From the NCBI RefSeq assembly GCF_900104695.1, contig NZ_FNSW01000001.1:1116001-1180000 (forward strand): a DNA stretch of 64,000 bases. Direction: 5' to 3'. The DNA is from Paenibacillus sp. GP183. GTDB taxonomy: Bacteria; Bacillota; Bacilli; Paenibacillales; NBRC-103111. The notes under the pieces were generated by a model. It made no database searches and was not told where the DNA came from. It saw only the letters and a program-made list of their open reading frames with translations. A program made the translations under genes and the position numbers. Positions 4,228 through 61,902 of this stretch are shown piece after piece (within the stretch, counting starts at the first letter, position 1; every line of letters begins with the position of its first letter).

Positions 4228-4248
4228 GAGCTATCGTTCTCCGTTAGC
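4228..4248 (+). repeat. Dispersed CCGTTAG repeat, right half
   Basis: Carries GAGCTATCGTTCTCCGTTAGC, the commonest form of the right-hand motif of the repeat family in this window. Complete members have a left CTGCCCGTTAG-YT motif, an A-rich stretch, a hairpin with GGAGCTGCC..GGCAGCTCC-like arms, a TTTATT stretch and this right motif. Confidence 0.8.
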
Positions 4249-4897: not shown

Positions 4898-4966
4898 TAA
4901 AAGATAGGCTACCGAGAATAATCTGCGGTAGCCTGTTGTGGTAATTTTATTAAGCTATTGTACCCG
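4898..4966 (+). repeat. Dispersed CCGTTAG repeat, split by IS110 element 1
   Basis: The hairpin AGGCTACCGAG..CTGCGGTAGCCT is followed by a TTTTATT stretch and AAGCTATTGTACCCG, the right motif up to the junction. The rest (GTTTAGCTCAATAA) continues at 6748 on the other side of the element. The joined site reads like an intact repeat such as the one at 46375. Confidence 0.8.
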
Positions 4967-5001
4967 TCCCTCGGTTTTAAGGGGTTTTCTCACGTATGCT
5001 C

Positions 5002-7273: not shown

Positions 7274-7345
7274 AAATATCCCGCCTCTACAAAAAGGGGT
7301 TTTCATCCATTTTAACACAATTTATTAATCATCGTTATTCAAGAT

Positions 7346-7424
7346 AACTGCCCTTTACTTGAATAGGCAAAAGGAGGAGCTGCCAAGATGCAAGCTCCTC
7401 CACTATAGTTCTCCGTTAGCTGAG
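7346..7424 (+). repeat. Dispersed CCGTTAG repeat, complete unit
   Basis: AACTGCCCTTTACTTGAAT, then the hairpin GGAGGAGCTGCC..GCAAGCTCCTCC, then CTATAGTTCTCCGTTAGC: all three parts in 79 bp. It is one of the clearest full units. Confidence 0.85.
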
Positions 7425-7882: not shown

Positions 7883-8101
7883 GAAACTCCTCTTTCTTAT
7901 TGTTGCATTGGTTAGACAAAGAAAAGTTTTGCGTATAAATCATCCTGGTCTTGGAGTTTTGTCCAAATCTCACTATGTACCAATCTGATCTTGTCGGCAT
8001 CCTCACTGTCCTTGAGTAGTGTGATAATCCCCACCCCCTTTATTATATAAGACTGAGCAAACCGACAAAAGTTTCCTTTTACTAGGAAAATACAATACTC
8101 T

Positions 8102-8170
8102 ACTGCCCGTTACTTCAATAAAAGGAACTGCCACAAAGTAAGCTCTTCCAGTATGTAACCGTCCCTCAAT
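8102..8170 (+). repeat. Dispersed CCGTTAG repeat, degraded
   Basis: CTGCCCGTTACTTCAATAAAA, then a GGAACTGCC..AGCTCTTCC hairpin and a decayed right half (TAACCGTCCCTCAAT). Confidence 0.6.
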
Positions 8171-10060: not shown

Positions 10061-10260
10061 AACTATCGTACCCGTTAGTTCAACAAGCTGCCGGCATAGT
10101 GTCGGCAGCTTGTGACATGGTGTTATCGTAATCGTTTGTGCAATGCGGTTACGTTGTGTTATTTGTCTAAGGATACGGCTATTCATATGATTCTATTTCC
10201 GACTCAACCCAGACTGCCGCGGCAGTCTGTCAATTTCATTATCGTTCTCCGTTACTCAAC
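10061..10260 (+). repeat. Two CCGTTAG repeat units in tandem
   Basis: The first motif AACTATCGTACCCGTTAGTT (10061-10080) is followed by a hairpin AAGCTGCCGG..GTCGGCAGCTT. A second hairpin AGACTGCCGCGGCAGTCT (10211-10228) precedes TTATCGTTCTCCGTTACTC (10239-10257). The arms differ between the two hairpins but remain complementary. Together with a little unassigned sequence this fills the gap between the FAD oxidoreductase and DoxX genes. Confidence 0.7.
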
Positions 10261-13313: not shown

Positions 13314-13390
13314 AACTAATCTGCCCGTTAGTGGAGTGAAGGGCTACCAAGCGGCAGACTCGGACGCGAAAATAAAGTCCTAGACTGCCG
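13314..13390 (+). repeat. Dispersed CCGTTAG repeat, left motif
   Basis: AACTAATCTGCCCGTTAGTGGAG-type start followed by GAAGGGCTACC..GCGGCAGAC. The right half is not recognisable. Confidence 0.6.
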
Positions 13391-15722: not shown

Positions 15723-16262
15723 TCAGAGTTACCCACCCTTTTACTGATAACAAATCCGGCAAAGGTTCCTAAGACCTAGACAAGATTTGTCGGAAATACA
15801 TAAGGGCATTTTTCCTTCTAGGATGTGGATTTTCTATTTAGTCTTTCCAAAATCCAAAATGTCATGATTCCAATTGAGAAAACTGCGCCTCATAAAAACC
15901 TGATGGGTATTAGCCCGTGTAACAATTACAATCAAAAGATGGTCCGTTACATGAAATTGTACGGGGATCGTTAGCATAACCGAAAAACATCTAAACTCCT
16001 GCGGAACATTTACGACTTATACAAAAACGGAGATGTGAAGAAGCAAAAAGAGCTGCCGCGCAGCTCCCTCATCGTGGCTTATGGACTTGCTCACCAAAGC
16101 TATTGTTTTGTACGGATGTCCTTTGATCTATCGTTCTGCCCATTAGCCCAGCGAAGGGCTGCCACACGGATCATTCTGTCATTCAACTATCGTTTCCGTT
16201 AGCATGTTAAATAAAAAGCCGCGACACTGGTCCGCGACTCCAAAATTTGATATTCAACTTTA
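15723..16262. repeat. Intergenic stretch with two CCGTTAG repeat units
   Basis: No gene is seen. A hairpin AGAGCTGCCGCGCAGCTC sits at 16051-16068. One motif CTATCGTTCTGCCCATTAGC (16128-16147) is followed by GAAGGGCTGCC, and a second, CAACTATCGTTTCCGTTAGC, lies at 16184-16203. The first 180 bp show nothing recognisable. Confidence 0.65.
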
Positions 16263-17636: not shown

Positions 17637-17757
17637 GTACAAAAACATTTATTTTGTGATCATGTCAAAAAGAACTGCCGCGGCAGCTCCTTCATCATTT
17701 GTATAGAGTCCTTTATTGAGCTATCGTTCCTCGTTAGCTGAGCGAAGGGCCACCACG
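17637..17757 (+). repeat. Dispersed CCGTTAG repeat, long form
   Basis: A TGTACAAAAA..TTTTGTGA dyad, then hairpin GAACTGCCGCGGCAGCTCC, TTTATT spacer and GAGCTATCGTTCCTCGTTAGC, followed by GAAGGGCCACC. It matches the unit at 22392-22500 almost end to end and so defines an approximately 105-bp long form. Confidence 0.85.
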
Positions 17758-22391: not shown

Positions 22392-22500
22392 GGACATGTT
22401 CACAAATACCATCATTTTGTGAAGAAGCAGAAGGAGCTGCCACGGCAGCTCCTTCATCGTTTGAATAGAGTCCTTTATTGAGCTATCGTACTCCGTTAGC
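22392..22500 (+). repeat. CCGTTAG repeat, long form, target of IS110 element 2
   Basis: GGACATGTTCACAAA..TTTTGTGA dyad, hairpin GGAGCTGCCACGGCAGCTCC, TTTATT, and GAGCTATCGTACTCCGTTAGC ending exactly at the IS junction. The continuation GTTTAGCGAAAG is found at 24271. Confidence 0.88.
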
Positions 22501-22615
22501 ATTCCTGTAGAGCGTAAATTTTGAGCTTTGCAAAAAAACGAGCGCCTCGGTACGATGGGAGTAGGTAACGGGTCAAAGCCCTTTTAAATCCCATCATCCA
22601 GGAGGACGCTCTACT

Positions 22616-23887
22616 ATGAAGTTTAAATCGCAAGCCAGACAAAATCAACTCATTGAAAAGATTACCTCTTCGCATCTCGTTGTCGGGATCGACATCGCTC
22701 AGCAGACACATGTTGCACGCGCTGTAAACTTTCGCGGCATCATCATTGGAGAAGCGTTGTCGTTTACGAATGACGAAGATGGATTTAACAGCCTACTTCA
22801 ATGGATCCAGAAGCTGCAAACAGCTCATCAATTAAGTGCGACCGTCGTCGGCATGGAACCTACGGGACACTATTGGCTTAACGTGTCTCGATGGTTGGCT
22901 GCACGCCAATTTGAAGTCGTTTTGGTGAATCCGCATCTTGTGAAAAAGAACAAAGAGAACCGAGATAATACGCCCTCAAAGAGCGACAAAAAGGATGCCC
23001 TTGTCATCGCCGACATGGTGAAGAACGGGTACTACTCGTTTAGACGCAACACCCCTGAAGCGTTCGAGGATCTCCGTGTTCTTCTTTCGAACCGGGACTC
23101 TGTGGTGAAACGTCTCGTCAGTGCAAAAAACCAAATCCACCGTTGGGTGGACATTGTTTTCCCGGAATTGCGGCAGGTATTCAAGCACATCACGTGTATC
23201 GGTGCCTTGGTCACGCTACGCCTCTTCCCTACACCGGCAGAATTAAGCCAACTACAACCGCAAGACGTGATTAAAGGGTGGAAATCAATCATGAAGCGGC
23301 ACAGTGGATCACGAAAAGCCCAGGAACTCGTTACACTGGCCAGCCGCTCTGTCGGATCTCGCCAAGCTACGCATGCATACCAACTGCATTTGAAGCAACT
23401 GCTTGCAGAGTATGATCTGGCCTGCGAGCAGCTGCAGGTCGTAGAGCAGGAGATCGTCGCTGTGTTAGAACGCATCCCCTTTGCAAAATCCATGCTTGCG
23501 ATCAAAGGAATTAGTGCAATTTCACTGGCCAGTATTCTGGGTGAGGCTGGGGATTTAAGCGGATTTGTTCACGGGAATGCTTTGCTGCGCCATGCCGGCC
23601 TAAATCTTGCTGAATCAAGCTCCGGTAAATGGACCGGACAGATGATCATTAGTAAACGCGGTCGCTCCCGGCTCCGCCGCTTCCTCTACATAGCGACCAT
23701 GTGTTTAGTGATGAACAATCCAGAGTTTCAAGCGATGCATAAATACAATGTGAACGTGAAGAAGATGAAGAAAATGAAGTCCATTATGAAGCTCTGCGGT
23801 AAATTGGCTCGCATCTTGGTGGGGATGGCTCGCAGTGGTCAAGCCTACACACCTATGAAAACATTGCCACTTGAGCAAGCAGCTTAA
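22616..23887 (+). CDS. IS110-family transposase
   Basis: 423 residues, intact. The DEDD domain shows VVGIDIAQQTHVARAVNFRG, VVGMEPTGHYWLNVSRW and PSKSDKKDALVIADMVKNGY. A helical linker spans about 210-290. The C-terminal domain has AIKGISAISLASILGEAGDL and RHAGLNLAESSSGKWTGQ, with the candidate nucleophile Ser in the SSSGK segment. An AGGAGG site lies 9 nt before the ATG. It differs by roughly a dozen residues from the copy at 58674, so both are probably active or recently so. Confidence 0.95.
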   Translation: MKFKSQARQNQLIEKITSSHLVVGIDIAQQTHVARAVNFRGIIIGEALSFTNDEDGFNSLLQWIQKLQTAHQLSATVVGMEPTGHYWLNVSRWLAARQFEVVLVNPHLVKKNKENRDNTPSKSDKKDALVIADMVKNGYYSFRRNTPEAFEDLRVLLSNRDSVVKRLVSAKNQIHRWVDIVFPELRQVFKHITCIGALVTLRLFPTPAELSQLQPQDVIKGWKSIMKRHSGSRKAQELVTLASRSVGSRQATHAYQLHLKQLLAEYDLACEQLQVVEQEIVAVLERIPFAKSMLAIKGISAISLASILGEAGDLSGFVHGNALLRHAGLNLAESSSGKWTGQMIISKRGRSRLRRFLYIATMCLVMNNPEFQAMHKYNVNVKKMKKMKSIMKLCGKLARILVGMARSGQAYTPMKTLPLEQAA

Positions 23888-23918
23888 ACCTCAATACCGT
23901 TTTGTAAGACGTAGATTG

Positions 23919-24235
23919 GCTTATTCGCAGGATTTCAAAGAAAGCACGGAGTACCGGATACATTAAACCAAAGGACACTGACCCGTACCGTTAGCAAAAC
24001 CGGCCTCCACCCCTTGGATAGGTGTAACGAAGGAATGAGAGGGCTATGACCCGTTGAGACATGGGAGTGAAAACCTCCGAGGGTGGCGTGGAGAATGCGT
24101 GCAGTATATGGAAACAACTGGAGATATTACTCCTCTCCTCTATTCCCGCATGCCTTCATTGTTGCCCAAGTATAGTACGGTCACCCCCACTTATCCTAAA
24201 CTCCTAATCAAAGGGGCGAAATCCTGCGAATAAGC
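23919..24235 (+). ncRNA. Putative bridge/seek RNA region of IS110 element 2
   Basis: It is bounded by an 18-bp perfect inverted repeat, GCTTATTCGCAGGATTTC (23919-23936) and its complement (24218-24235). Inside, CCGTTAGC (23988-23995) is identical to the 8 nt of left flank next to the element (22493-22500). ATTAAAC (23962-23968) can pair with right flank GTTTAGC (24271-24277) at 6 of 7 positions, one a G-U. The two segments occupy the same alignment columns as their counterparts in element 1, although the sequences differ. The RNA's existence is inferred from known IS110 biology. Confidence 0.75.
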
Positions 24236-24272
24236 GAGCAAACGTGAGAAAACTGAATCGTACCGAGGGAGT

Positions 24273-24695
24273 TTAGCGAAAGTCAGTGACAGACCAATAA
24301 TCATCCGCCTCAATAAGGCTTTTTAATGCCTTGTTTGCTACATTTTCGTAAATATTGCCGAAGAAATTAACTTTGTCGTACCTAAACCAATCATCCTTAT
24401 CTCCAATCCTTACCCTAATATTGGGATGCAAATCATATGCGGTCACTTTGTTCGGAGGGACTTTTTCTCCCCAATGATGGGTAAAGCCCTCTGGTGAACA
24501 AACAGCTACCTCCATAAAAAAACCACCACCATATTTATCGAATTGAAATGTTAGGAGGTCTATTTTCTTTTCCGTTATTCTTCGAAAATGCGGAAAAGTA
24601 CCCTTGAAGTCACGGTCACGTAGGCTTGGAATAACGATATTTTTAAGCGAACTTATCATTTTATCTCTCTCCTCGGACAACTTAACTTCCCCCAT
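24273..24695 (-). CDS. DUF4304 domain protein
   Basis: 140 residues. It shows the DUF4304 pattern: IVIPSLRDRDFKGTFPHFRR, then KKIDLLTFQFDKYGGGFFME, VAVCSPEGFTHHWGEKVPPN and a terminal WFRYD..NIYENVANKALKSL. The function of DUF4304 is not known; such genes often lie in variable regions beside toxin-immunity-like genes. The stop codon TAA is 2 bp from the right end of IS110 element 2, so the insertion spared the gene but separated it from its former downstream sequence. Confidence 0.7.
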   Translation of the reverse strand: MGEVKLSEERDKMISSLKNIVIPSLRDRDFKGTFPHFRRITEKKIDLLTFQFDKYGGGFFMEVAVCSPEGFTHHWGEKVPPNKVTAYDLHPNIRVRIGDKDDWFRYDKVNFFGNIYENVANKALKSLIEADDYWSVTDFR

Positions 24696-24766: not shown

Positions 24767-24861
24767 ATTATCCTGCCCGTTCGCACAGCAGGCCACCGAG
24801 TTTATCACAGGCAGCCTGCTTGATCTTTGTTATGGAGCTATCGTTTTCCGTTAGTTCAACG
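24767..24861 (+). repeat. Dispersed CCGTTAG repeat, complete unit
   Basis: ATTATCCTGCCCGTTCGCAC, hairpin CAGCAGGCCACC..CAGGCAGCCTGCTTG, then GAGCTATCGTTTTCCGTTAGTTCAAC. The hairpin arms differ from most units yet still pair. Confidence 0.85.
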
Positions 24862-25663: not shown

Positions 25664-25690
25664 AACTATAGTTTTCGTTAGTTGAACGAA
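25664..25690 (+). repeat. Dispersed CCGTTAG repeat, right half
   Basis: GAACTATAGTTTTCGTTAGTTGAACGA preceded by a TTTATT stretch. A degraded hairpin GTCGCGGCGATCTGC lies upstream. Confidence 0.6.
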
Positions 25691-25886: not shown

Positions 25887-25980
25887 ACTAACCTGCCTGT
25901 TACCTCAATGAAAAAAACAGGTCACCGATTAGACAGCTCAGATTGTCTTTATATAGCTATCGTTATCCGTTAGTTCAATG
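25887..25980 (+). repeat. Dispersed CCGTTAG repeat, complete unit
   Basis: AACTAACCTGCCTGTTACCTC, a weak hairpin (AACAGGTCACC..GACAGCTCAGATTGTC) and TAGCTATCGTTATCCGTTAGTTCAATG. Confidence 0.75.
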
Positions 25981-26515: not shown

Positions 26516-26540
26516 CTATCGTTTCCCGTTAGCGTAACAA
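26516..26540 (+). repeat. Dispersed CCGTTAG repeat, right half
   Basis: CTATCGTTTCCCGTTAGCGTAACAA, lying between a broken hypothetical gene and a metallo-hydrolase remnant. Confidence 0.7.
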
Positions 26541-32585: not shown

Positions 32586-32654
32586 TGGACATATGTACAA
32601 AAACTCCTATTTTGTTCATATGTCCTTTATGGAGCTATCGTATCCGTTAGTTTA
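32586..32654 (+). repeat. CCGTTAG repeat preceded by a CATATGTCC palindrome
   Basis: GGACATATGTACAAAA..TTTTGTTCATATGTCC forms a long dyad (32587-32624). GAGCTATCGTATCCGTTAG then ends the unit at 32650. The usual GC hairpin is replaced by this dyad. Confidence 0.75.
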
Positions 32655-32680
32655 GAGTTCACAATCACATTGTGCCTCCT

Positions 32681-33523
32681 TTAGCGACGGCTTTGATTGT
32701 AAAAGACGGTACTCTCCGTATGAATTAGGCGAAGCAGTTCAATCAAGTCACGTAATCGATCTAAATACGAATAATACTCGCGTGTACACTCTAGTCGTTT
32801 TATCGCAATAGCCTCGCGGATAAGCCCGTGCCAACGATCCGGTAAAAGTTTAAGCCCATACTCGCCAGCTGCAACCTTGCTGATTACATCGTACTCCTTT
32901 ATCGAATAATATTGCCTTAACATGCCAAGCGTGCACCATTCAACCGCAAAATCTAACTGCTTAATTTGCTCCAAAGTAGTTGGTTCCGATATGTCCGTCA
33001 AACTTAGTTGATGTTCCAGTCGTTCAATCCATCCGACCCAATATGTATTCATATTTCCAAATACATATTGGACGAGCTCGTCAGATGAAATCTCATATTC
33101 GAAGGCTTTTTGCTGTCCATAAATACAAATACCGTATTTCTTAAGCACCCGCCACGTAACAGGATTTATATCCCCATTCCCATTGAAATCTAAAGTCTTA
33201 TCGTGATATTTAGGAAATGGAGGAATTTCATTTAAGGATTTTCCTGCATCCTCCTGTCTAATGTAAGCACCCATAATGTCCAAAGTTGGAAATTCCAGCT
33301 CAACAAGCCTATGAGCTTCAATAATGAATTGGATGTCCGATGGGATAAGGGTTCTATTGACAAATACAAGAAAGTTTATATCGCTTGACCCATTAACATA
33401 GGCGTTGAGTGCGGTCGACCCATAAACATAAAAGGATTCTATTGTATGCGGCAACCGAGCTTGTAATGCTTCGTTTAAATTTCGCATTGAAGTATCAACA
33501 ACTTCTGGCAACCTGTAAGACAT
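32681..33523 (-). CDS. Nucleotidyltransferase (AadA/DUF4111-like)
   Basis: 280 residues from ATG 33523, 8 nt after AGGAGG; a longer upstream frame is not needed. The nucleotidyltransferase motif is near residues 29-48: FYVYGSTALNAYVNGSSDIN, followed by FLVFVNRTL. The C-terminal half (AVEWCTLGMLRQYYSIKEYD, then KLLPDRWHGLIREAIAIKRL) matches the helical DUF4111 domain of aminoglycoside adenylyltransferases. The usual S-D-I-D is S-D-I-N here, so one metal-binding Asp is missing; activity may be altered or lost. Resistance should not be assumed. Confidence 0.78.
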   Translation of the reverse strand: MSYRLPEVVDTSMRNLNEALQARLPHTIESFYVYGSTALNAYVNGSSDINFLVFVNRTLIPSDIQFIIEAHRLVELEFPTLDIMGAYIRQEDAGKSLNEIPPFPKYHDKTLDFNGNGDINPVTWRVLKKYGICIYGQQKAFEYEISSDELVQYVFGNMNTYWVGWIERLEHQLSLTDISEPTTLEQIKQLDFAVEWCTLGMLRQYYSIKEYDVISKVAAGEYGLKLLPDRWHGLIREAIAIKRLECTREYYSYLDRLRDLIELLRLIHTESTVFYNQSRR

Positions 33524-33565
33524 CTTCAGTACCTCCTCCATGCTGTTCATTCCTGTCCATATTGA

Positions 33566-33632
33566 GCAGGCTGCAGATGATGCCGGTAGCCTGTTCGTCA
33601 AGGTGCTATCGTTCTCCGTTAGCGTAAACAAA
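33566..33632 (+). repeat. Dispersed CCGTTAG repeat, right half with hairpin
   Basis: Hairpin GCAGGCTGC..GCCGGTAGCCTG followed by GTGCTATCGTTCTCCGTTAGC and GTAAACAAAG. Confidence 0.8.
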
Positions 33633-34648: not shown

Positions 34649-34882
34649 GGTATATTTACGAAATTTGTTGGGATAGCATCAGAGCATCGGTTGTGTGCTT
34701 AGTGGCACCGACCGTCGCTCTGATGTTGAAGCGTTAGGTATATATAATTTCACATAACTGCCCGTTAGCACAGCAAATAAAAACAGCTGCTATTGTGCTA
34801 TCATTCTCCGTTACTTTAATAATACGAGCAGATAACATACCTCTTGCATTTACACATCTGAAAAAAAACTCCTTATTAGTCC
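34649..34882 (+). repeat. Intergenic stretch: hairpin and complete CCGTTAG repeat
   Basis: Hairpin CATCAGAGC (34677-34685) / GCTCTGATG (34717-34725) may end the ArsR operon. The repeat runs 34755-34820: AACTGCCCGTTAGCACAGC, short hairpin AACAGCTGC, GTGCTATCATTCTCCGTTAC. Confidence 0.7.
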
Positions 34883-35509: not shown

Positions 35510-35667
35510 GTTTTTCTACTCCTTAAAAATCAGCATTCATACTTTTGAACTATCCTGTCCGATACGTCATTGACGATCAAAAAGTCCTTGAAAATCAAGG
35601 ACTTCTCTGATAAGGCTTGCAACGAGTATAATTAAACGTAGATCGTTTGGTGTCAAGATTTCGCTCG

Positions 35668-35705
35668 TTTATTGAGCTATCGTTCTCCGTTAGAATTCCT
35701 GTAGA
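35668..35705 (+). repeat. CCGTTAG repeat with a trace of an IS110 left end
   Basis: TTTATTGAGCTATCGTTCTCCGTTAG is followed immediately by AATTCCTGTAGA, which matches the IS110 left end ATTCCTGTAGAG seen at 22501, 43069 and 58559. The rest of the element is gone. Confidence 0.65.
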
Positions 35706-42992: not shown

Positions 42993-43068
42993 TCATGGAT
43001 GGTTACTTCAGTAAACTAAAAGAGGAGCCTGCCTCTAAGCAACTCCTCCGCTATCGTTCTCCGTTAGC
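42993..43068 (+). repeat. CCGTTAG repeat, target of the deleted IS110 copy
   Basis: GGTTACTTCAGTAAACTAAA, hairpin GAGGAGCCTGCC..AGCAACTCCTC, CGCTATCGTTCTCCGTTAGC ending at the junction. The rest, GTTAAACAAAAAC, lies at 43808. Confidence 0.85.
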
Positions 43069-43807
43069 ATTCCTGTAGAGCGTTAATTTTGAGCTTTGCA
43101 AAAAAACGAGCGCCTCGGTACGATGGGAGTAGGTAACGGGTCAAAGCCCTTTTAAATCCCATCATCCAGGAGGACGCTCTACTATGAAGTTTAAATCGCA
43201 AGCCAGACAAAATCAACTCATTGAAAAAATTACCTCTTCGCATCTCGTTGTCGGGATCGACATCGCTCAGCAGACACATGTTGCTGCCGACGACGGTCGC
43301 ACTTAATTGATGAGCTGTTTGCAGCTTCTGGATCCATTGAAGTAGGCTGTTAAATCCATCTTCGTCATTCGTAAACGACAACGCTTCTCCAATGATGATG
43401 CCGCGAAAGTTTACAGCGCGTTAAACCTCAATACCGTTTTGTATGACGTAGATTGGCTTATTCGCAGGATTTCAAAGAAAGCACGGAGTACCGGATACAT
43501 TAAACCAAAGGGCACTGACCCGTACCGTTAGCAAAACCGGCCTCCACCCCTTGGATAGGTGTAACGAAGGAATGAGAGGGCTATGACCCGTTGAGACATG
43601 GGAGTGAAAACCTCCGAGGGTGGCGTGGAGAATGCGTGCAGTATATGGAAACAACTGGAGATATTTCTCCTCTCCTCTATTCCCGCATGCCTTCATTGTT
43701 GCCCAAGTATAGTACGGTCACCCCCACTTATCCTAAACTCCTAATCAAAGGGGCGAAATCCTGCGAATAAGCGAGCAAACGTGAGAAAACTGAATCGTAC
43801 CGAGGGA
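43069..43807 (+). mobile_element. Deleted and rearranged IS110 copy (739 bp)
   Basis: The left end and first about 100 bp of the transposase gene (43069-43284) match element 2. Then a 135-bp block (43286-43420) equals 22718-22852 of element 2 in inverted orientation. From 43421 the complete 3' noncoding segment and right end follow. About 1 kb of coding DNA is lost, but both ends and the guide-RNA region are intact. Confidence 0.88.
43456..43772 (+). ncRNA. Putative bridge/seek RNA region in the deleted IS110 copy
   Basis: The same 18-bp inverted repeat bounds it (43456-43473 and 43755-43772). Guide segments ATTAAAC (43499-43505) and CCGTTAGC (43525-43532) are unchanged. The left flank matches 8 of 8; right-flank pairing is 5 of 7. 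Retained without a transposase. Confidence 0.65.
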
Positions 43808-43856
43808 GTTAAACAAAAACTATTAAATATAATGAAAAATAAATGGTTTCCCTATT

Positions 43857-44416: not shown

Positions 44417-44477
44417 CTATCCTGCCCGTTCGTATTATGAGGTCACCGAGTTTATCACTGTCAGCCTGCTTGATCTT
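44417..44477 (+). repeat. Dispersed CCGTTAG repeat, left half
   Basis: ACTATCCTGCCCGTTCGTA, then GAGGTCACCGAGTTTATCAC and CTGTCAGCCTGCTTGATC, nearly identical to the left half of the unit at 24767. The right half is absent because the next gene begins. Confidence 0.7.
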
Positions 44478-44774: not shown

Positions 44775-44800
44775 AACTAACGTTTTCCGTTAGCGTAGCG
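44775..44800 (+). repeat. Dispersed CCGTTAG repeat, right half
   Basis: GAACTAACGTTTTCCGTTAGCGTAGC, preceded by a degraded GGGTGGCCACTACGGC hairpin. Confidence 0.65.
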
Positions 44801-46374: not shown

Positions 46375-46428
46375 GAAGAGCCGCCGTCGCGGCAAGCTCC
46401 TCAACTCTTGTACCCGTTAGCTTAATCA
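46375..46428 (+). repeat. Dispersed CCGTTAG repeat, partial
   Basis: GAAGAGCCGCCGTCGCGGCA-type hairpin, then CTTGTACCCGTTAGCTTAATC. The TGTACCCGTTAGC form matches the repeat split by IS110 element 1. Confidence 0.75.
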
Positions 46429-46447
46429 GTCGCTCCATGTTGTAAAT

Positions 46448-46840
46448 CTACTCCATCACAAGCCAAGATTTTGCATCCTCCGGATCGTTAAAAAAATTTA
46501 TTGGCATTGAGATATTTCCATTTCGCTTGATTTTATTACGAATTCTCCATTTCATTATAGATGAGCAACCAACAATTGAAAGCTTACGAATAGACTTGTT
46601 TAACCGGCCTATACTCTCTACAAACTCATTTATTACCTCTTGTGTTAAGCTTGTTTTATAGAAATCAACCCAAATATCTAGGCGTCTATGAGTTTCCAAT
46701 ATAAACTCTTCTTCCAATTTTATTAAGGAAAACAAGGCGTCTTTATTAGAATAAAAACTTCCATATTTAAGACAATGGATTTCGCCATCTTTATAAAAAT
46801 AGGGAAATAACGAGCCGCCAGGTGATTTTATACTGTTCAC
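46448..46840 (-). CDS. Hypothetical protein, STAS-like pattern
   Basis: 130 residues, soluble. MNSIKSPGGSLFPYFYKDGE opens, then LRRLDIWVDFYKTSLTQ-like strand-helix alternation (RRLDIWVDFYKTSLTQEVIN), IRKLSIVGCSSIMKWRIRNK and the ending NFFNDPEDAKSWLVME. The final FNDPEDAKSWL resembles the last helix of SpoIIAA/STAS-like proteins, but I am not certain. GGAGGAGG precedes the ATG. Confidence 0.6.
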   Translation of the reverse strand: MNSIKSPGGSLFPYFYKDGEIHCLKYGSFYSNKDALFSLIKLEEEFILETHRRLDIWVDFYKTSLTQEVINEFVESIGRLNKSIRKLSIVGCSSIMKWRIRNKIKRNGNISMPINFFNDPEDAKSWLVME

Positions 46841-46940
46841 AATAAAACCTCCTCCTCCTAATACTAATCGATGAATACGTGATATTTACCCACCCAATAA
46901 TACCACAATTTGTAATGCAAAACCTTTATACTTACTATGT

Positions 46941-47279
46941 TAATCTGTCCGTTTGTTGAGCAAACGGCTGCTGATCATTAGATCTTCAGCCGTTCTATTA
47001 CGCTATCGTTCTCCGTTTTGATATGCTCAATTTCAAGCCAAGTAAATTGCAGACACAATCACTTGTTTTGAGACCTATCCGTAGACAGAAAGAGACCCAC
47101 AGACTAGTTGGCGGGTGCTGTGGGTCTTAATGTTATATGAAAAAGGGGGTCGAGTTCTATTATATGCTTGGTACATTATCGCAGTGTCAACGGCTTGTTT
47201 CATTATGATTACAAATGCCGCTGCACATCTTCAAAAGTTAGTGTTTTGTTCAGATGTTCTTTATCGTTAGCTTGTATTA
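46941..47279 (+). repeat. Complete CCGTTAG repeat and a terminator-like hairpin
   Basis: The repeat at 46941-47018 has TTAATCTGTCCGTTTGTTGAG, hairpin AACGGCTGC..AGATCTTCAGCCGTT and CGCTATCGTTCTCCGTTTT. A separate hairpin GACCCACAG (47094-47102) / CTGTGGGTC (47118-47126) follows. TTTATCGTTAGCTTG near 47263 is a further fragment. No gene seen. Confidence 0.75.
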
Positions 47280-47909: not shown

Positions 47910-48138
47910 CGAATAATGTTATGAAATCAAACTGAAAGTTTGCTGAATATTCTTGTGCACAGTAAAAACGGACTCGATTATACTTTTTGGAATAACTGAT
48001 AGTAAAAATCTTTTCAGTATAAAGGCAAGGCATTGAAGCATTAGATAAACTATTCTGCCAGTTAGCTGAGAGAAGGGCTCCACATGGATGCCTTTCGATA
48101 TTGATCTCTAGATTTCCAATAGCTTAACGAAGCATACG
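47910..48138. repeat. Intergenic stretch with a repeat fragment
   Basis: AAACTATTCTGCCAGTTAGCTGAG at 48048-48070 and GAAGGGCTCC mark a decayed CCGTTAG left half. Nothing else noted. Confidence 0.5.
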
Positions 48139-49012: not shown

Positions 49013-49096
49013 ATAAGCTGCCCTTTAAATGAGAAAAGCCACCAATCCAGTTGGCAGCGTCGTGTATTTGTGCTATCGTTATCCGTTAGTTAAGTC
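49013..49096 (+). repeat. Dispersed CCGTTAG repeat, complete unit
   Basis: TAATAAGCTGCCCTTTAAATGAG, hairpin AAGCCACCAATCC..TTGGCAGCG, GTGCTATCGTTATCCGTTAGTTAAG. Its last bases form the stop codon of the DinB gene. Confidence 0.8.
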
Positions 49097-49556
49097 ATTT
49101 CACTCCTAATACTTTCAGCATAGCGCCTATATTCCCAACATGTAAATATTCGTGGAAAAGATTAAACAAAAGAAGCTCCTCCACCGTCTCACCCTTGGAG
49201 GGATTATCCTTAGACCTAGTATCCAACTTGCCTGTAAAGACACGACGGATTAGGGGGATTTGGGCCTTTAGTTGGGAGAGAATTTCATTCCATGATGGCG
49301 GTTCCCCGTTCCACTCAGATGGCTTTGTCCCATTTACAAAAAATGCTTTATACTCAGCCGACAGAGTCTGATTTTCTCCGGACAGCCTGGTAATTAAGCC
49401 ATCTGTCTCTGTTACGATATGACCGAGTTGCCAAAGGATATTGTTATTGAATCCAGTGGGAACAACATAGCGTTTATCAAGAGGACAATCCCCAACTTGT
49501 TTCAGTAGTTGCTCTCGACCCCTTGCCAGGGCATCAAATAAAACGTTTTCCCTCAT
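49095..49556 (-). CDS. DinB-family protein
   Basis: 153 residues, a four-helix bundle of the DinB/YfiT-type superfamily. The start MRENVLFDALARGREQLLKQ leads to ILWQLGHIVTETDGLITRLS with the first metal-binding His, and LFNLFHEYLHVGNIGAMLKV with the paired histidines. Family members include thiol-dependent S-transferases using bacillithiol. Its stop codon lies inside the adjacent repeat, whose TTAG supplies the TAA. Confidence 0.85.
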   Translation of the reverse strand: MRENVLFDALARGREQLLKQVGDCPLDKRYVVPTGFNNNILWQLGHIVTETDGLITRLSGENQTLSAEYKAFFVNGTKPSEWNGEPPSWNEILSQLKAQIPLIRRVFTGKLDTRSKDNPSKGETVEELLLFNLFHEYLHVGNIGAMLKVLGVK

Positions 49557-49914
49557 CTCGATTCCTCTTAACTTCTACGTATAAGATGATGTTCACTATA
49601 ACGTTATCAAGCCAATTCTTCCTTTTTAACTATATCAATACCGACTACTTCCATGCAATATTTCCAGTTAAAATTATCAACTAATAATGTATATATTCTA
49701 CAATGTAATTGCATTAGCTGCCCGTTAGCTGAGCGGATATCAACTGTTTTATTTTATCCTCAAGATTGCTTCGTCGGGAATGAGTACAAGTTCTTGTCAC
49801 CCGACACAAGATGAAAACAAAAAGTAGGGGTATAAAACGCATGTATTGAAATAATGGCCCGATTGGCGACGGCGTGTATCGGACGCTTGTCTGGCATTGT
49901 TCATTGGCAGGGTT
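49557..49914. repeat. Intergenic stretch with a CCGTTAG fragment
   Basis: TTAGCTGCCCGTTAGCTGAGCGG at 49714-49736. The remaining bases show no gene or clear hairpin. Confidence 0.55.
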
Positions 49915-55942: not shown

Positions 55943-55980
55943 CCTTCCCGTTACTTCAATAAACGAAAAAGGAGCTACCG
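55943..55980 (+). repeat. CCGTTAG repeat cut by the IS91-type element
   Basis: CTTCCCGTTACTTCAATAAACG, then AAAAAGGAGCTACCGC, the left part of a unit up to the hairpin. It stops where IS91-type transposase sequence begins. Confidence 0.65.
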
Positions 55981-56453
55981 CAATGGACATGGGGATGATC
56001 CATTAAGTTTTGGCCCCAGGTATGAAGCAGTGAAATAAATCCGATTTGAGCACCTAGATACTTGGGATCATTAGCAAGCTCTAAAAGGGTTTCCGCGCTT
56101 GCTTTAAACAACAGAGTGTACATCACTTTCTTGTTTCTTAAGGCAATTGCTCGTAATTCAGTTGGCAGTGTAAAGACGATGTGGAAATACGGGATAGGTA
56201 ATAAATCTTTTTTCCGTTCTTCCAACCATCTTTCTTTGGGCAGGTTTTGACATTTAGGACAATGCCTGTTACGGCAGGAGTTGTACGAGATTTGTTTGTG
56301 TCCGCAATCGTCGCATTGGTCCACGTGGCCTCCCATCATGGATGTTCGGCAGTATTGAATAGCATGCATCGCTCTAATCATCGGTAAGGACAGTTTATGG
56401 TGAGCTCTATACTCATCACCGTACTCTCGAAAGATATCTGCAACCTCAATCAT
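55981..56453 (-). pseudogene. IS91-family (Y2-type) transposase, N-terminal fragment
   Basis: About 157 codons: the zinc-finger domain HVDQCDDCGHKQISYNSCRN with RHCPKCQNLPKERW, then PIPYFHIVFTLPTELRAIAL and the HUH motif LMDHPHVHC, after which it runs into the repeat. The two catalytic tyrosines and about 60% of the protein are missing. It overlaps the integrase gene by 8 nt, the standard arrangement in IS91-type elements of Bacillota. Confidence 0.82.
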
Positions 56454-57294
56454 GGACTATCTCTTTCAGACGATCGAGCGGACTTTTAACGTTTAAGAGG
56501 TCTTTGCGGGTTAGATACAGATATATATTCGTTGTTTTCGGGCTGGTATGTCCAAGCAAATTCTGAATATGGTAAATGCTTGTTCCTGCTTCCAATAAAT
56601 GCGTCGCAAAACAGTGACGGAGCGTATGGACGGACACCTGCTTATGTATTCCAGCTATACTCTTAGCCTTTTCAAACATTTTTTGAATGGAACGTGTGGT
56701 AAGCGGTTTATCCTGATCATAACCAGGGAACAACCATTCTTTGGGTCTACATCGTTTCCAGTATTCTCTAAGAATATGTAAATTTTCAGTTGATAACAGG
56801 CTGTATCGATCTTTCTTCCCTTTCGCTTGCCGAATTCGGAGTTGCATGTTCTTGCTATCTATATCCGCAACTTTTAGATTAGCAGCTTCACTTACACGAA
56901 GTCCGGCAGCATATATGGTCATTAAAATGGCTCTATGTTTTATGTTGGTTAACGCATCAAAAATCCCCTTTACTTCAGCTGCGGAAAGTACAGAGGGTAA
57001 TTGTTTTGGTGTTTTGGTTCTCGGAATTGCTTTAACGTCCCAAGTTCTCCCTAATGTGATTTCATAGAAAAACTTTAACGCACTATACATTGTGTTGATG
57101 GAGGAATGGCTTTTGGTTTGGGTTGAAAGTAATAGATGTAGGTAGTCTTTAATTTCAGTGGTTCCGAGTAAACTAGGAGATTTTCCGTAGTGGCGAGAAA
57201 ATTCAGTAACACAACGCAGGTACGCTGCTTGGGTATTGGGACTATATCCCCTTAACTCTAAATTGAACTTCATCTGTTCTTTTAAAGTAGGCAT
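56446..57294 (-). CDS. Tyrosine recombinase of the IS91-type element
   Basis: 282 residues from ATG 57294, 8 nt after AAAGGAG. The N-terminal SAM-like domain (LELRGYSPNTQAAYLRCVTE) leads to the catalytic domain: Arg in TIYAAGLRVSEAANLKVADI, Lys in AKGKKDRYSLLS, His-x-x-Arg in VHTLRHCFATHLLEAGTSIY, His in IQNLLGHTSPKTTNIYLYLT and the Tyr nucleophile in that last segment. It looks intact. Such integrases accompany IS91-like transposases and may act on the element's own ends. Confidence 0.9.
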   Translation of the reverse strand: MPTLKEQMKFNLELRGYSPNTQAAYLRCVTEFSRHYGKSPSLLGTTEIKDYLHLLLSTQTKSHSSINTMYSALKFFYEITLGRTWDVKAIPRTKTPKQLPSVLSAAEVKGIFDALTNIKHRAILMTIYAAGLRVSEAANLKVADIDSKNMQLRIRQAKGKKDRYSLLSTENLHILREYWKRCRPKEWLFPGYDQDKPLTTRSIQKMFEKAKSIAGIHKQVSVHTLRHCFATHLLEAGTSIYHIQNLLGHTSPKTTNIYLYLTRKDLLNVKSPLDRLKEIVHD

Positions 57295-57448
57295 TGTATT
57301 CGCTCCTTTCAAATCATTACTGGTCATTATTCCCAATAATGATTTAAAAAAAGCTTGCAAGTTAGCCACCGCGCAGCGGTTTAGTTCAACGTCTTATTTA
57401 CGAATTTCGCGAACTTTCCATATATAAGGTATTCACGAAAGGAATTAA

Positions 57449-58481: not shown

Positions 58482-58558
58482 ACTGCCGCCCGTTATTTTA
58501 ATAAACCAAAAAGAGGAGCTGCCCCGAAGCAAGTTCCTCCACTATCGTTTCCGTTAGC
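58482..58558 (+). repeat. CCGTTAG repeat, target of IS110 element 3
   Basis: ACTGCCGCCCGTTATTTTAA, hairpin GAGGAGCTGCC..GCAAGTTCCTC, CACTATCGTTTCCGTTAGC ending at the junction. The continuation is GTTTAGTAGG at 60329. Confidence 0.85.
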
Positions 58559-58673
58559 ATTCCTGTAGAGCGATTATTACGAGCTTTGCAAAAAAACGAG
58601 CGCCTCGGTACGATGGGAGTACGCAACGGGTCAAAGCCCTTTTAAATCCCATCATCCAGGAGGACGCTCTACT

Positions 58674-59945
58674 ATGAAGTTTAAATCGCAAGCCAGACAA
58701 AATCAACTCATTGAAAAAATTACCTCTTCACATCTTGTTGTCGGGATCGACATCGCCCAGCAGACACATGTTGCCCGCGCTGTAAACTTTCGCGGCATTA
58801 TCATTGGAGAAGCGTTGTCGTTTACGAATGACGAAGATGGATTTAACAGCCTACTTCAATGGATCCAGAAGCTGCAAACAGCTCATCATTTAAGTGCGAC
58901 TGTCGTCGGCATGGAACCCACGGGACACTATTGGCTTAACGTGTCTCGATGGTTGGCTGCTCACCAATTTGAAGTCGTTTTGGTGAACCCGCATCTTGTG
59001 AAAAAGAACAAAGAGAACAGAGATAATACGCCCTCGAAGAGCGACAAAAAGGATGCCCTTGTCATCGCCGACATGGTGAAGAACGGGTACTACTCGTTTA
59101 GACGCAACACCCCTGAAGCGTTCGAGGAACTCCGTGTTCTTCTTTCGAACCGAGACTCTGTGGTGAAACGTCTCGTCAGCGCAAAAAACCAAATCCACCG
59201 TTGGGTGGACATTGTTTTCCCTGAATTGCGGCATGTATTCAAGCACATCACGTGTATCGGTGCCTTGACCACGTTACGCCTCTTCCCTACACCGGCAGAA
59301 TTAGGCCAACTACAACCGCAAGACGTGATTAAAGGGTGGAAATCACTCATGAAGCGGCACAGCGGTTCACGAAAAGCCCAGGAACTCATTACACTGGCCA
59401 GCCTCTCTGTCGGATCTCGCCAAGCTACTCATGCATACCAACTGCATTTGAAGCAACTGCTTGCAGAGTATGATCTGGCCTGCGAGCAGCTGCAGGTCGT
59501 AGAGCAGGAGATCGTCGCTGTGTTAGAACGCATCCCCTTTGCAAAATCCATGCTTGCGATCAAAGGAATTAGTGCAATTTCACTGGCCAGTATTCTGGGT
59601 GGGGCTGGGGATTTAAGCGGATTTGTTCACGGGAATGCTTTGCTGCGCCATGCCGGCCTAAATCTTGCTGAATCAAGCTCCGGTAAATGGACCGGACAGA
59701 TGATCATTAGTAAACGCGGACGCTCCCGGCTCCGCCGCTTCCTCTACATAGCGACCATGTGTTTAATTATGAATAATCCAGAGTTTAAAGCGATGCATGC
59801 TTACAATGTGAACGTGAAGAAGATGAAGAAAAAGAAGTCCGTTATGAAGCTCTGCGGTAAATTGGCTCGCATCTTGGTGGGGATGGCTCGCAGCGGTCAA
59901 GCCTACACACCTATAAAAACATGGCCACTTGAGCAAGCAGCTTAA
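58674..59945 (+). CDS. IS110-family transposase
   Basis: 423 residues, intact. It carries the same DEDD and C-terminal motifs as the protein at 22616 (VVGIDIAQQTHVARAVNFRG, VVGMEPTGHYWLNVSRW, PSKSDKKDALVIADMVKNGY, RHAGLNLAESSSGKWTGQ). About a dozen conservative changes separate them, for example HHLSATVV for HQLSATVV. AGGAGG precedes the ATG by 9 nt. It could serve the deleted copy at 43069 in trans. Confidence 0.95.
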   Translation: MKFKSQARQNQLIEKITSSHLVVGIDIAQQTHVARAVNFRGIIIGEALSFTNDEDGFNSLLQWIQKLQTAHHLSATVVGMEPTGHYWLNVSRWLAAHQFEVVLVNPHLVKKNKENRDNTPSKSDKKDALVIADMVKNGYYSFRRNTPEAFEELRVLLSNRDSVVKRLVSAKNQIHRWVDIVFPELRHVFKHITCIGALTTLRLFPTPAELGQLQPQDVIKGWKSLMKRHSGSRKAQELITLASLSVGSRQATHAYQLHLKQLLAEYDLACEQLQVVEQEIVAVLERIPFAKSMLAIKGISAISLASILGGAGDLSGFVHGNALLRHAGLNLAESSSGKWTGQMIISKRGRSRLRRFLYIATMCLIMNNPEFKAMHAYNVNVKKMKKKKSVMKLCGKLARILVGMARSGQAYTPIKTWPLEQAA

Positions 59946-59976
59946 ACCTCAATACCGTTTTGTTAGACGTAGATTG

Positions 59977-60293
59977 GCTTATTCGCAGGATTTCAAAGAA
60001 AGCACGGAGTACCGGATACATTAAACCAAAGGGCACTGACCCGTACCGTTAGCAAAACCGGCCTCCACCCCTTGGATAGGTGTAACGAAGGAATGAGAGG
60101 GCTATGACCCGTTGAGACATGGGAGTGAAAACCTCCGAGGGTGGCGTGGAGAATGCGTGCAGTATATGGAAACAACTGGAGATAAACTCACTCTCCTTTA
60201 TTCCAGCACGCCTTCATGTTGCCGAAGTCTAGTACGGTTGTTCCCTCCTCCTTCTATACTCCTGTCCAAAGGGATGAAATCCTGCGAATAAGC
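59977..60293 (+). ncRNA. Putative bridge/seek RNA region of IS110 element 3
   Basis: The 18-bp inverted repeat is conserved (59977-59994 and 60276-60293). Guide segments are ATTAAAC (60020-60026), pairing with right flank GTTTAGT (60329-60335) at 7 of 7 with one G-U, and CCGTTAGC (60046-60053), identical to left flank 58551-58558. Sequence between 60184 and 60275 is diverged from element 2 while both arms are unchanged. Confidence 0.72.
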
Positions 60294-60366
60294 GAGCATG
60301 CGTGAGAAAACTGAATCGTGCCGAGGGAGTTTAGTAGGGGGCGTGTTTCAATAGAAAATCTTGATC

Positions 60367-61300: not shown

Positions 61301-61380
61301 TATACTGCCCCCGTTAGTTGAGCAAACAAAAAACGGCTGCCGAAGCAACCGTACTGCACAATCGTACCTGTTAATAGAAT
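61301..61380 (+). repeat. Dispersed CCGTTAG repeat, complete but diverged
   Basis: ATACTGCCCCCGTTAGTTGAGC, hairpin AACGGCTGCCGAAGCAACCGT, ACAATCGTACCTGTTAATAG. Confidence 0.7.
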
Positions 61381-61791: not shown

Positions 61792-61857
61792 TAAACCGCC
61801 AACACACAATATAAAATCATTATTACTTTTATTTTACCAAACACCGTCATTACGCGA

Positions 61858-61902
61858 TATTGCCCGTTAGCTGAACAGGCTGCCGATCGTGCCGGCAGCC
61901 TT
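61858..61902 (+). repeat. Dispersed CCGTTAG repeat, left half with hairpin
   Basis: TATTGCCCGTTAGCTGAAC followed by AGGCTGCCGATCGTGCCGGCAGCC, a near-perfect hairpin. Confidence 0.75.

Follow-up and report, generated by a model that had tools for sequence, protein, structure and literature searches.

Intergenic repeats of Paenibacillus sp. GP183 as probable core sites of an integron-like gene cassette system

The window analysed here is a 64-kb stretch of the Paenibacillus sp. GP183 genome, and it holds 38 copies of a short site that we call the core: 16 of a 17-nt class, CTATCGTTCTCCGTTAG, and 22 of a 16-nt class, CTATACTGCCCGTTAG or CTATCGTACCCGTTAG, every one of them on the + strand (Table 1). 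Both classes are versions of one pseudo-palindrome, in which the inverted arms TTGAACTA(T)CG and CG(T)TAGTTCAA enclose a centre of 4–5 nt and which, together with its flanks, reads TTGAACTATCG-TTCTC-CGTTAGTTCAA. The cores were located with weight matrices trained on island DNA of the source genome (864 kb) and then applied to the window. The first-pass annotation of this DNA had described a dense family of structured repeats, in which a left and a right motif flank a hairpin. The dense family and the unit quoted for it are indeed present, as are both motifs (11 window matches to the right one at ≤3 mismatches, expected 0.00, and 9 to the left one at ≤1 mismatch, expected 0.67), but the two are not different motifs. 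The same annotation placed the copies almost only between genes, which agrees with 37 of the 38 core midpoints lying outside ORFs of ≥100 aa and one inside, and it knew no named family that fits, in line with the Rfam covariance models, which gave no match to the window at the gathering threshold. The stop codon that it credited to a repeat near 49095 immediately follows the core with its end at 49089 and belongs to the extended right arm.

Table 1. Cores, hairpin units and core-bounded segments in the window (positions are window coordinates)
Feature	Position	Strand	Core score	Remarks
17-nt core	4231..4247	+	30.5	
16-nt core, doubtful	4955..4970	+	10.7	near threshold
Hairpin unit of the first-pass annotation	7343..7419	+	17.3, 31.2	16-nt core 7343-7358; hairpin GGAGGAGCTGCC/GCAAGCTCCTCC; 17-nt core CTATAGTTCTCCGTTAG 7403-7419
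16-nt core	8098..8113	+	23.8	
16-nt core	10063..10078	+	30.0	followed by hairpin at 10085 named in the first-pass annotation
17-nt core	10239..10255	+	18.9	
16-nt core	13316..13331	+	26.4	
16-nt core	16187..16202	+	21.9	
17-nt core	17721..17737	+	34.0	
17-nt core	22483..22499	+	24.6	IS110 copy immediately downstream; repeat family and IS110 transposase
Hairpin unit	24768..24854	+	28.9, 36.5	cores end at 24783 and 24854; hairpin in 13-copy family
16-nt core	25666..25681	+	24.4	
Hairpin unit	25888..25973	+	24.3, 35.8	cores end at 25903 and 25973
17-nt core	26516..26532	+	34.9	
Gene cassette	32635..33622	+		cores end at 32650 and 33622; 96.6% paralog C1:1502613-1503600; core at each end in both copies
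Short hairpin unit	34753..34814	+	26.5, 29.1	cores end at 34768 and 34814
16-nt core	35550..35565	+	21.8	
17-nt core	35677..35693	+	23.8	followed by AATTCCTGTAGA, resembling the start of an IS110 copy; repeat family D6
17-nt core	43051..43067	+	26.7	incomplete IS110 copy immediately downstream
16-nt core	44417..44432	+	23.0	
17-nt core	44777..44793	+	32.3	perfect inner palindrome CTAACG-TTTTC-CGTTAG
Gene cassette	46405..46951	+		first core ends at 46420; 93% paralog C1:2286490-2287026; core at each end in both copies
Hairpin unit	46940..47019	+	20.0, 14.4	AACGGCTGC/TCAGCCGTT; cores end at 46955 and 47019
Hairpin unit	48050..48122	+	27.1, 12.4	cores end at 48065 and 48122, the second degenerate
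17-nt core	49073..49089	+	32.5	stop codon of ORF 49095-49556 (-) just after
16-nt core	49713..49728	+	15.4	
Segment	55939..57465	+	13.1, 26.2	cores end at 55954 (weak) and 57465; tyrosine recombinase and partial IS91 transposase, both on -
16-nt core	58542..58557	+	21.8	IS110 copy immediately downstream
16-nt core	61359..61374	+	21.2	
16-nt core	61855..61870	+	23.1	part of unit at 61876 named in the first-pass annotation

Three IS110-family copies in the window (22492-24276, 43060-43813 and 58550-60334) start right after the GTTAG of a core (GCATTCCTGTAGA), and related copies in P. castaneae (L127) and Cohnella lupini (L165) start at a core too, a parallel to the IS1111 members that target attC or REP. 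A second repeat family, ACATATGTACAAAA-N-TTTTGT-N-CATATGT, occurs at window positions 16086, 17632, 31844, 32590 and 47224, and sequence like it was found upstream of some cores. Promoter and terminator scans over 40 kb of the window gave numbers near or somewhat above the shuffled expectation.

Cores occur at many other places of the source genome and are not confined to this locus. Eighteen regions were taken from it and 17 of them hold cores, the exception being C2:1-20000; the islands, 864 kb in all, contain 417 cores, of which 143 belong to the 17-nt and 274 to the 16-nt class; at the same thresholds reversed sequence returned 11 matches for the former and 27 to 44 for the latter. The total does not give a genome-wide density because the islands were picked for holding the motif. 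Although ORFs of ≥100 aa cover 72% of this DNA, the midpoints of only 21 of the 417 cores fall inside one. Region by region 400 of the 417 share the majority orientation, and this orientation tracks the sign of the GC skew in 17 of 17 regions, + where the skew is negative and - where it is positive. Positive GC skew marks the leading strand, and if this applies here the motif strand is the lagging strand. The one-way orientation might reflect selection for leading-strand genes, direct-repeat recombination that keeps the orientation of the resident core, or a preference for the lagging strand. Three other genomes (G085, G087 and G088) supplied 14 array stretches, in which 171 cores follow the majority and 3 run against it; one stretch, L289, holds none. 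Among six control stretches in other genomes four lack cores, one has 2 and one (L301) has 9.

The DNA between consecutive cores falls into gene-size and hairpin-size segments. Those of gene size (250–6000 nt) have a median length of 1047 bp and usually contain one main ORF; 180 of their 227 ORFs of ≥100 aa run opposite to the core motif, though gene direction is not independent evidence because the genes of control stretches also lean with replication. From 196 cassette ORFs of ≥100 aa we drew 140 evenly, removed 10 by hand (among them the IS110 ORF at window position 58674) and scanned the remaining 130 against Pfam. Their content is diverse, with 147 families, led by GNAT acetyltransferases (8), methyltransferases (5), DinB (5) and IS110 transposases (5). 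Single cassette ORFs match the PADLOC defence models AriA, GajA, PtuA and DrmC, five match mad2 and two mad3, so the cassettes may carry defence genes. Hairpin units make up the shortest class: the folding z of 89 segments of 40–80 nt has its median at -2.9, with 64% of them below -2, versus a median of -0.15 in 80 control stretches. These 89 hairpins comprise 8 families of 2–13 copies and 56 singletons, and the 13 similar copies of one family, located at different places, suggest that hairpin segments spread by themselves. The variable but complementary arms reported in the first-pass annotation thus belong to real hairpins, but the differences are mostly between unrelated hairpins.

To follow the segments themselves we compared places within the genome, keeping blocks of ≥150 nt and ≥85% identity and removing local tandem repeats as well as blocks covered more than 3 times, a filter meant to take out most insertion sequences. 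Of the resulting 107 non-repetitive paralogous blocks, 14 are bounded by cores on both sides in each copy, and for 36 this holds on at least one side (IS110 copies account for at least 3 of those with a single such end). In 500 circular shifts of the core positions the corresponding maxima were 0 and 2. Since 14 of 107 blocks run from core to core and none did so in 500 shifts, the segments behave as mobile gene cassettes. The two-end blocks are gene segments of 0.4–1.3 kb, such as C1:654335-654992 with C1:4527946-4527292 (97.6%) and C1:464059-463058 with C1:3931913-3930908 (98.8%), and three of the 14 join the chromosome and C2. Gene blocks also end at the core that precedes a hairpin. At a right block end the copies are alike up to CTATCGT and then diverge; at a left end they are alike from GTTAG onward. 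For ends of the CTATCGT type the inner arm is common to the copies and the 4–5-nt centre differs at 11 of the 12 right ends and at 10 of the 13 left ones, counts taken from 52 ends of blocks of ≥120 nt, some of which share a place and are not all independent. Such a differing centre is expected where a tyrosine recombinase exchanges strands within a short overlap of two sites that are not identical; at CTGCC-type cores the centre appears to remain with the left piece. A comparison with 185 loci of other genomes, mostly of 2–8 kb, yielded 112 shared blocks, none with cores at both ends in both copies and 24 with a core at one end in both, 13 of these 24 being IS110 copies.

Of the 18 PF00589 matches in the source genome one was the tyrosine recombinase inside the window (P0001, 56446-57369, -), which adjoins a partial IS91 transposase and was set aside. 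The pair (55956-57369), whose IS91 transposase is truncated (165 aa, matching 156 of 356 profile positions), sits between two core-like sites. Elsewhere in the genome three tyrosine recombinase genes stand in a row at C1:4394697-4397272, like a recombinase-in-trio element. Thirteen candidate ORFs were matched against loci of other genomes that hold the motif. One of them, a Xer-like tyrosine recombinase of 280 aa encoded at C1:4493858-4494697, for which we coin the name IntC, had homologs of 53–84% identity, some fragmentary, a few kb from the motif in P. brasilensis, P. sp. BK033, P. ginsengarvi, Cohnella lupini and P. mangrovi; the other candidates matched these loci only near or below 33% or over a 37-residue fragment. 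At E ≤ 1e-40 this is the only intC copy of the source genome (C1:4.494 Mb), and the window and most islands have none. All 23 full-length homologs retain the catalytic residues. IntC scores 192.7 bits against the XerC model and 191.7 bits against the XerD model, both below their cut-offs, and its AlphaFold2 model (mean pLDDT 82.6, weak at the C-terminus) matches XerA (archaeal Xer), Tn1549 Int, XerD and lambda Int ahead of IntI4, which ranks 17th, at modest TM-scores of about 0.5–0.6. IntC is Xer-like, not IntI.

At a lenient threshold of 8, 21 of 28 loci have an antisense core, placed like an attI site, about 80–145 nt upstream of intC, while the models found no upstream core in the other 7; with the strict 17-nt model the count is 14 of 30. 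The loci are alike up to this core and unrelated beyond it. A second core is present within 220 nt past the intC stop codon in 10 of 28 loci (lenient threshold), and of the cores in the surroundings of intC 91 are antisense and 4 sense. A conserved leader hairpin (CCCTCCCAA ... TTGGGAGGG in many copies; L246-L274) lies no more than about 60 nt upstream of intC, between the start codon and the core, and its last part is likely the ribosome-binding site. Because the hairpin appears to cover this site, intC translation may be kept low.

Neither the motif nor the gene is confined to one strain. At E ≤ 1e-40 intC occurs in 46 of 104 genomes of the family, often in several copies and often broken, and the exact motif in 55 of 104 (reversed pattern, 0), so that copies exist in other Paenibacillaceae as well; there are 36 in the source genome (G000), 28 in G088, 21 in G094 and 15 in G087. 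The motif was found in 33 of 46 genomes with intC versus 22 of 58 without (Fisher p = 0.0008), so that 13 genomes carry intC without the exact motif and 22 the motif without intC at the threshold used; of the 17 genomes with ≥4 motifs, four (G067, G078, G089 and G120) lack intC. Among 398 genomes of the phylum, 9 have intC at E ≤ 1e-55, the source genome included, four of them at only 38–39% identity, and no core was seen by eye near the gene in these four (L280-L283). In a motif scan over 257 Gb, 67 of 80 loci among the matches listed are Paenibacillus or Cohnella, and isolated matches in other phyla are expected, since a pattern with 16 fixed bases should hit 257 Gb about 120 times by chance.

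More distant homologs of IntC (49–54%) are found on 7 of 9 plasmid records, three of Peribacillus, one each of Sporosarcina, Cytobacillus and Niallia, and one filed as Arthrobacter citreus, a label that may be wrong because the other close plasmid homologs come from Bacillales-type genera. This last plasmid (CP053689.1 107827-148621, L308; 51% homolog) carries a dense array of small genes with 40 palindromic sites CTTATNCAACTAA-N-TTAGTTGNATAAG versus 0 in the reversed control, as counted with a matrix trained on that locus. Seven pairs of sites are 57–72 nt apart, at least 2 of the 3 inspected enclose a hairpin, and of the 25 genes annotated on the right side of the homolog 23, NUDIX genes included, lie on the opposite strand. 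The arrangement of two sites with a hairpin between them thus spans a large divergence. Sites are few on a Peribacillus plasmid with a 54% homolog (L306), where the Paenibacillus models gave 7 matches versus 5 in the control; two are convincing, one of them immediately after the stop codon of the homolog. The Sporosarcina plasmid (NZ_CP146247.1 1-39367, L307) has 17 scattered core-like sites versus 9 in the control. A mercury resistance pair and an IS110 gene are found nearby. No IntC relative turned up in the viral contigs searched, and three phage records have IntC matches at 35–36%.

In attC two simple sites flank a hairpin, and integron crossover takes place at a single bond, G^TT, in the outer box. 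If the array were a classical integron or a CALIN, the cores and hairpin would together be such an attC, recombined on folded single strands by a true IntI (attC folding and cassettes, PMC8618304). The hairpin between two simple sites, the GTTAG of the core, the attI-like site beside a tyrosine recombinase gene, the single-gene cassettes and the insertion of IS110-type elements at the site, as of some IS1111 members at attC (PMC11187229), all recall this arrangement. However, no IntI exceeds the cut-off in the source genome, and IntC reaches 96.0 bits against the IntI model TIGR02249 (cut-off 265) and leaves profile positions 183-240 unmatched; it lacks the IntI-specific insertion. Sequence comparison further shows centres that differ at both left and right block ends, a pattern not expected of one fixed crossover bond, and gene blocks that also end at the core before the hairpin. 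A folded attC-type site was tested as 1L:1R, 2L:2R and segment start/end pairing, and although the hairpins are strong, box pairing did not exceed shuffles: arm complementarity across the hairpin unit was no better than shuffled, 2L:2R was worse (z -3.1), and segment start versus end gave a weak signal in gene-size (z 1.9) and a negative one in hairpin-size segments (z -3.4). We regard a classical integron as unlikely, and call the system integron-like rather than an integron because the tests for an IntI-type enzyme and for a single fixed crossover bond both fail.

It is similarly improbable that the host XerC/XerD act on the cores as on the pdif sites of Acinetobacter plasmids. A core of about 27 bp with a short centre does resemble a dif-type site, genes move as modules between sites, and there are the 22 motif-bearing genomes without intC at the threshold used. 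pdif sites alternate in orientation, whereas the cores run one way per region, and the dedicated Xer-like gene has its upstream core in most copies examined. An approximate dif-like consensus had no match within 3 mismatches in the source genome.

We consider it very unlikely that the repeats are REP, REPIN or IS200/IS605-derived miniature elements moved by a Y1 transposase, with their orientation set by lagging-strand targeting. Like such repeats they are short, intergenic and hairpin-forming, have one strand orientation per region and are targeted by IS110-family elements, and the genome contains 15 Y1 matches, including 9 near-full-length frames of 133–145 aa that, judged from size, look like the IS200/IS605 type. 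Unlike them, the cores are pseudo-palindromic, linked to a tyrosine recombinase and not arranged in inverted pairs; no linked Y1 gene was found at the elements examined, four Y1-bearing 1.77-kb elements on C2 that have no core at their ends, and it is gene segments, with a core on either side, that move. The REPIN reading of the first-pass annotation, together with the RAYT-like transposase that it proposed to look for, is not supported, the associated enzyme being a tyrosine recombinase; its MITE-like alternative suits the hairpin-only segments in part, given the 13-copy family, but what moves is chiefly DNA that lies between cores and carries genes. Ordinary homologous recombination between dispersed repeats could also place block ends at repeated cores, but the junctions share short sequence only, the centres differ and the link between intC and core would stay unexplained, which makes it an explanation of very low probability. 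That the hairpins are immobile terminators or RNA-processing elements, the latter also proposed in the first-pass annotation, is hardly credible, as a T tract (≥5 T in 8 nt after the stem) follows just 25% of 84 hairpins in the gene direction and 32% in the other, and block boundaries, solo cores and the recombinase would be left without explanation; some hairpins possibly have a side role as terminators.

The repeats are thus probably recombination core sites that bound small, interchangeable gene cassettes in an integron-like system. In this integron-like system IntC would most likely bind the core arms and exchange strands across the 4–5-nt centre, leading to excision and insertion of the DNA between two cores as in integrons and dif modules. 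The sequence comparisons show directly the core-to-core extent of paralogous blocks, the core upstream of intC, an orientation that goes with the sign of the GC skew and the recurrence in other genomes; IntC as the enzyme, exchange on double-stranded DNA, passage of cassettes through a circle and a role of the hairpins are inferred. The DNA moved would usually be a single gene, as a cassette some 1 kb long, or a 45–75-bp hairpin segment, and the core upstream of intC is the apparent place of cassette insertion. In the source genome the cassettes are spread over many islands, on the chromosome as well as on a 399-kb contig; the window is one of these islands and has no intC of its own.

On a broader view we lean towards a separate, non-IntI integron system of Bacillales, in which a Xer-derived integrase and composite hairpin sites, of an origin independent from IntI integrons, shuffle hundreds of cassettes per genome in Paenibacillaceae chromosomes, with relatives on the plasmids of other genera. 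Integrons are rarely found in Firmicutes, where IntegronFinder 2.0 reports only one complete integron (Limnochorda pilosa) and few CALIN (PMC9024848), hence the interest of a parallel system. A Bacillales cassette system of this kind was not found in print in the open-licence PMC literature. If true, a parallel system would help explain the variation of accessory genes, possibly including defence genes, in Paenibacillus and relatives, and it would provide an independent comparison for integron origins and a testable recombinase with short sites.

Finally, for comparison with known systems, IntC shares the Xer type with the simple tyrosine recombinases of mobile elements; the classification subgroups of tyrosine recombinases include integron-like, Rit, TnpA and TnpR, and the passages that name them describe no Bacillales cassette recombinase (PMC8138268). 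As in dif modules (PMC13141974, PMC12907356), genes are exchanged as modules between short Xer-type sites, but here with a dedicated recombinase, as we infer, in one orientation, in islands over the chromosome and with hairpin units. The likeness to integrons comprises a tyrosine recombinase gene with an adjacent core, mostly single-gene cassettes between short sites in one orientation, clusters without an integrase, and hairpins between two simple sites. In contrast to integrons, the enzyme is Xer-like and lacks the IntI insertion, pseudo-palindromic cores bound segments singly, the exchange region spans 4–5 nt, the islands are many and dispersed, and in Paenibacillaceae intC is encoded opposite to the core motif, on the strand that also carries most cassette genes.
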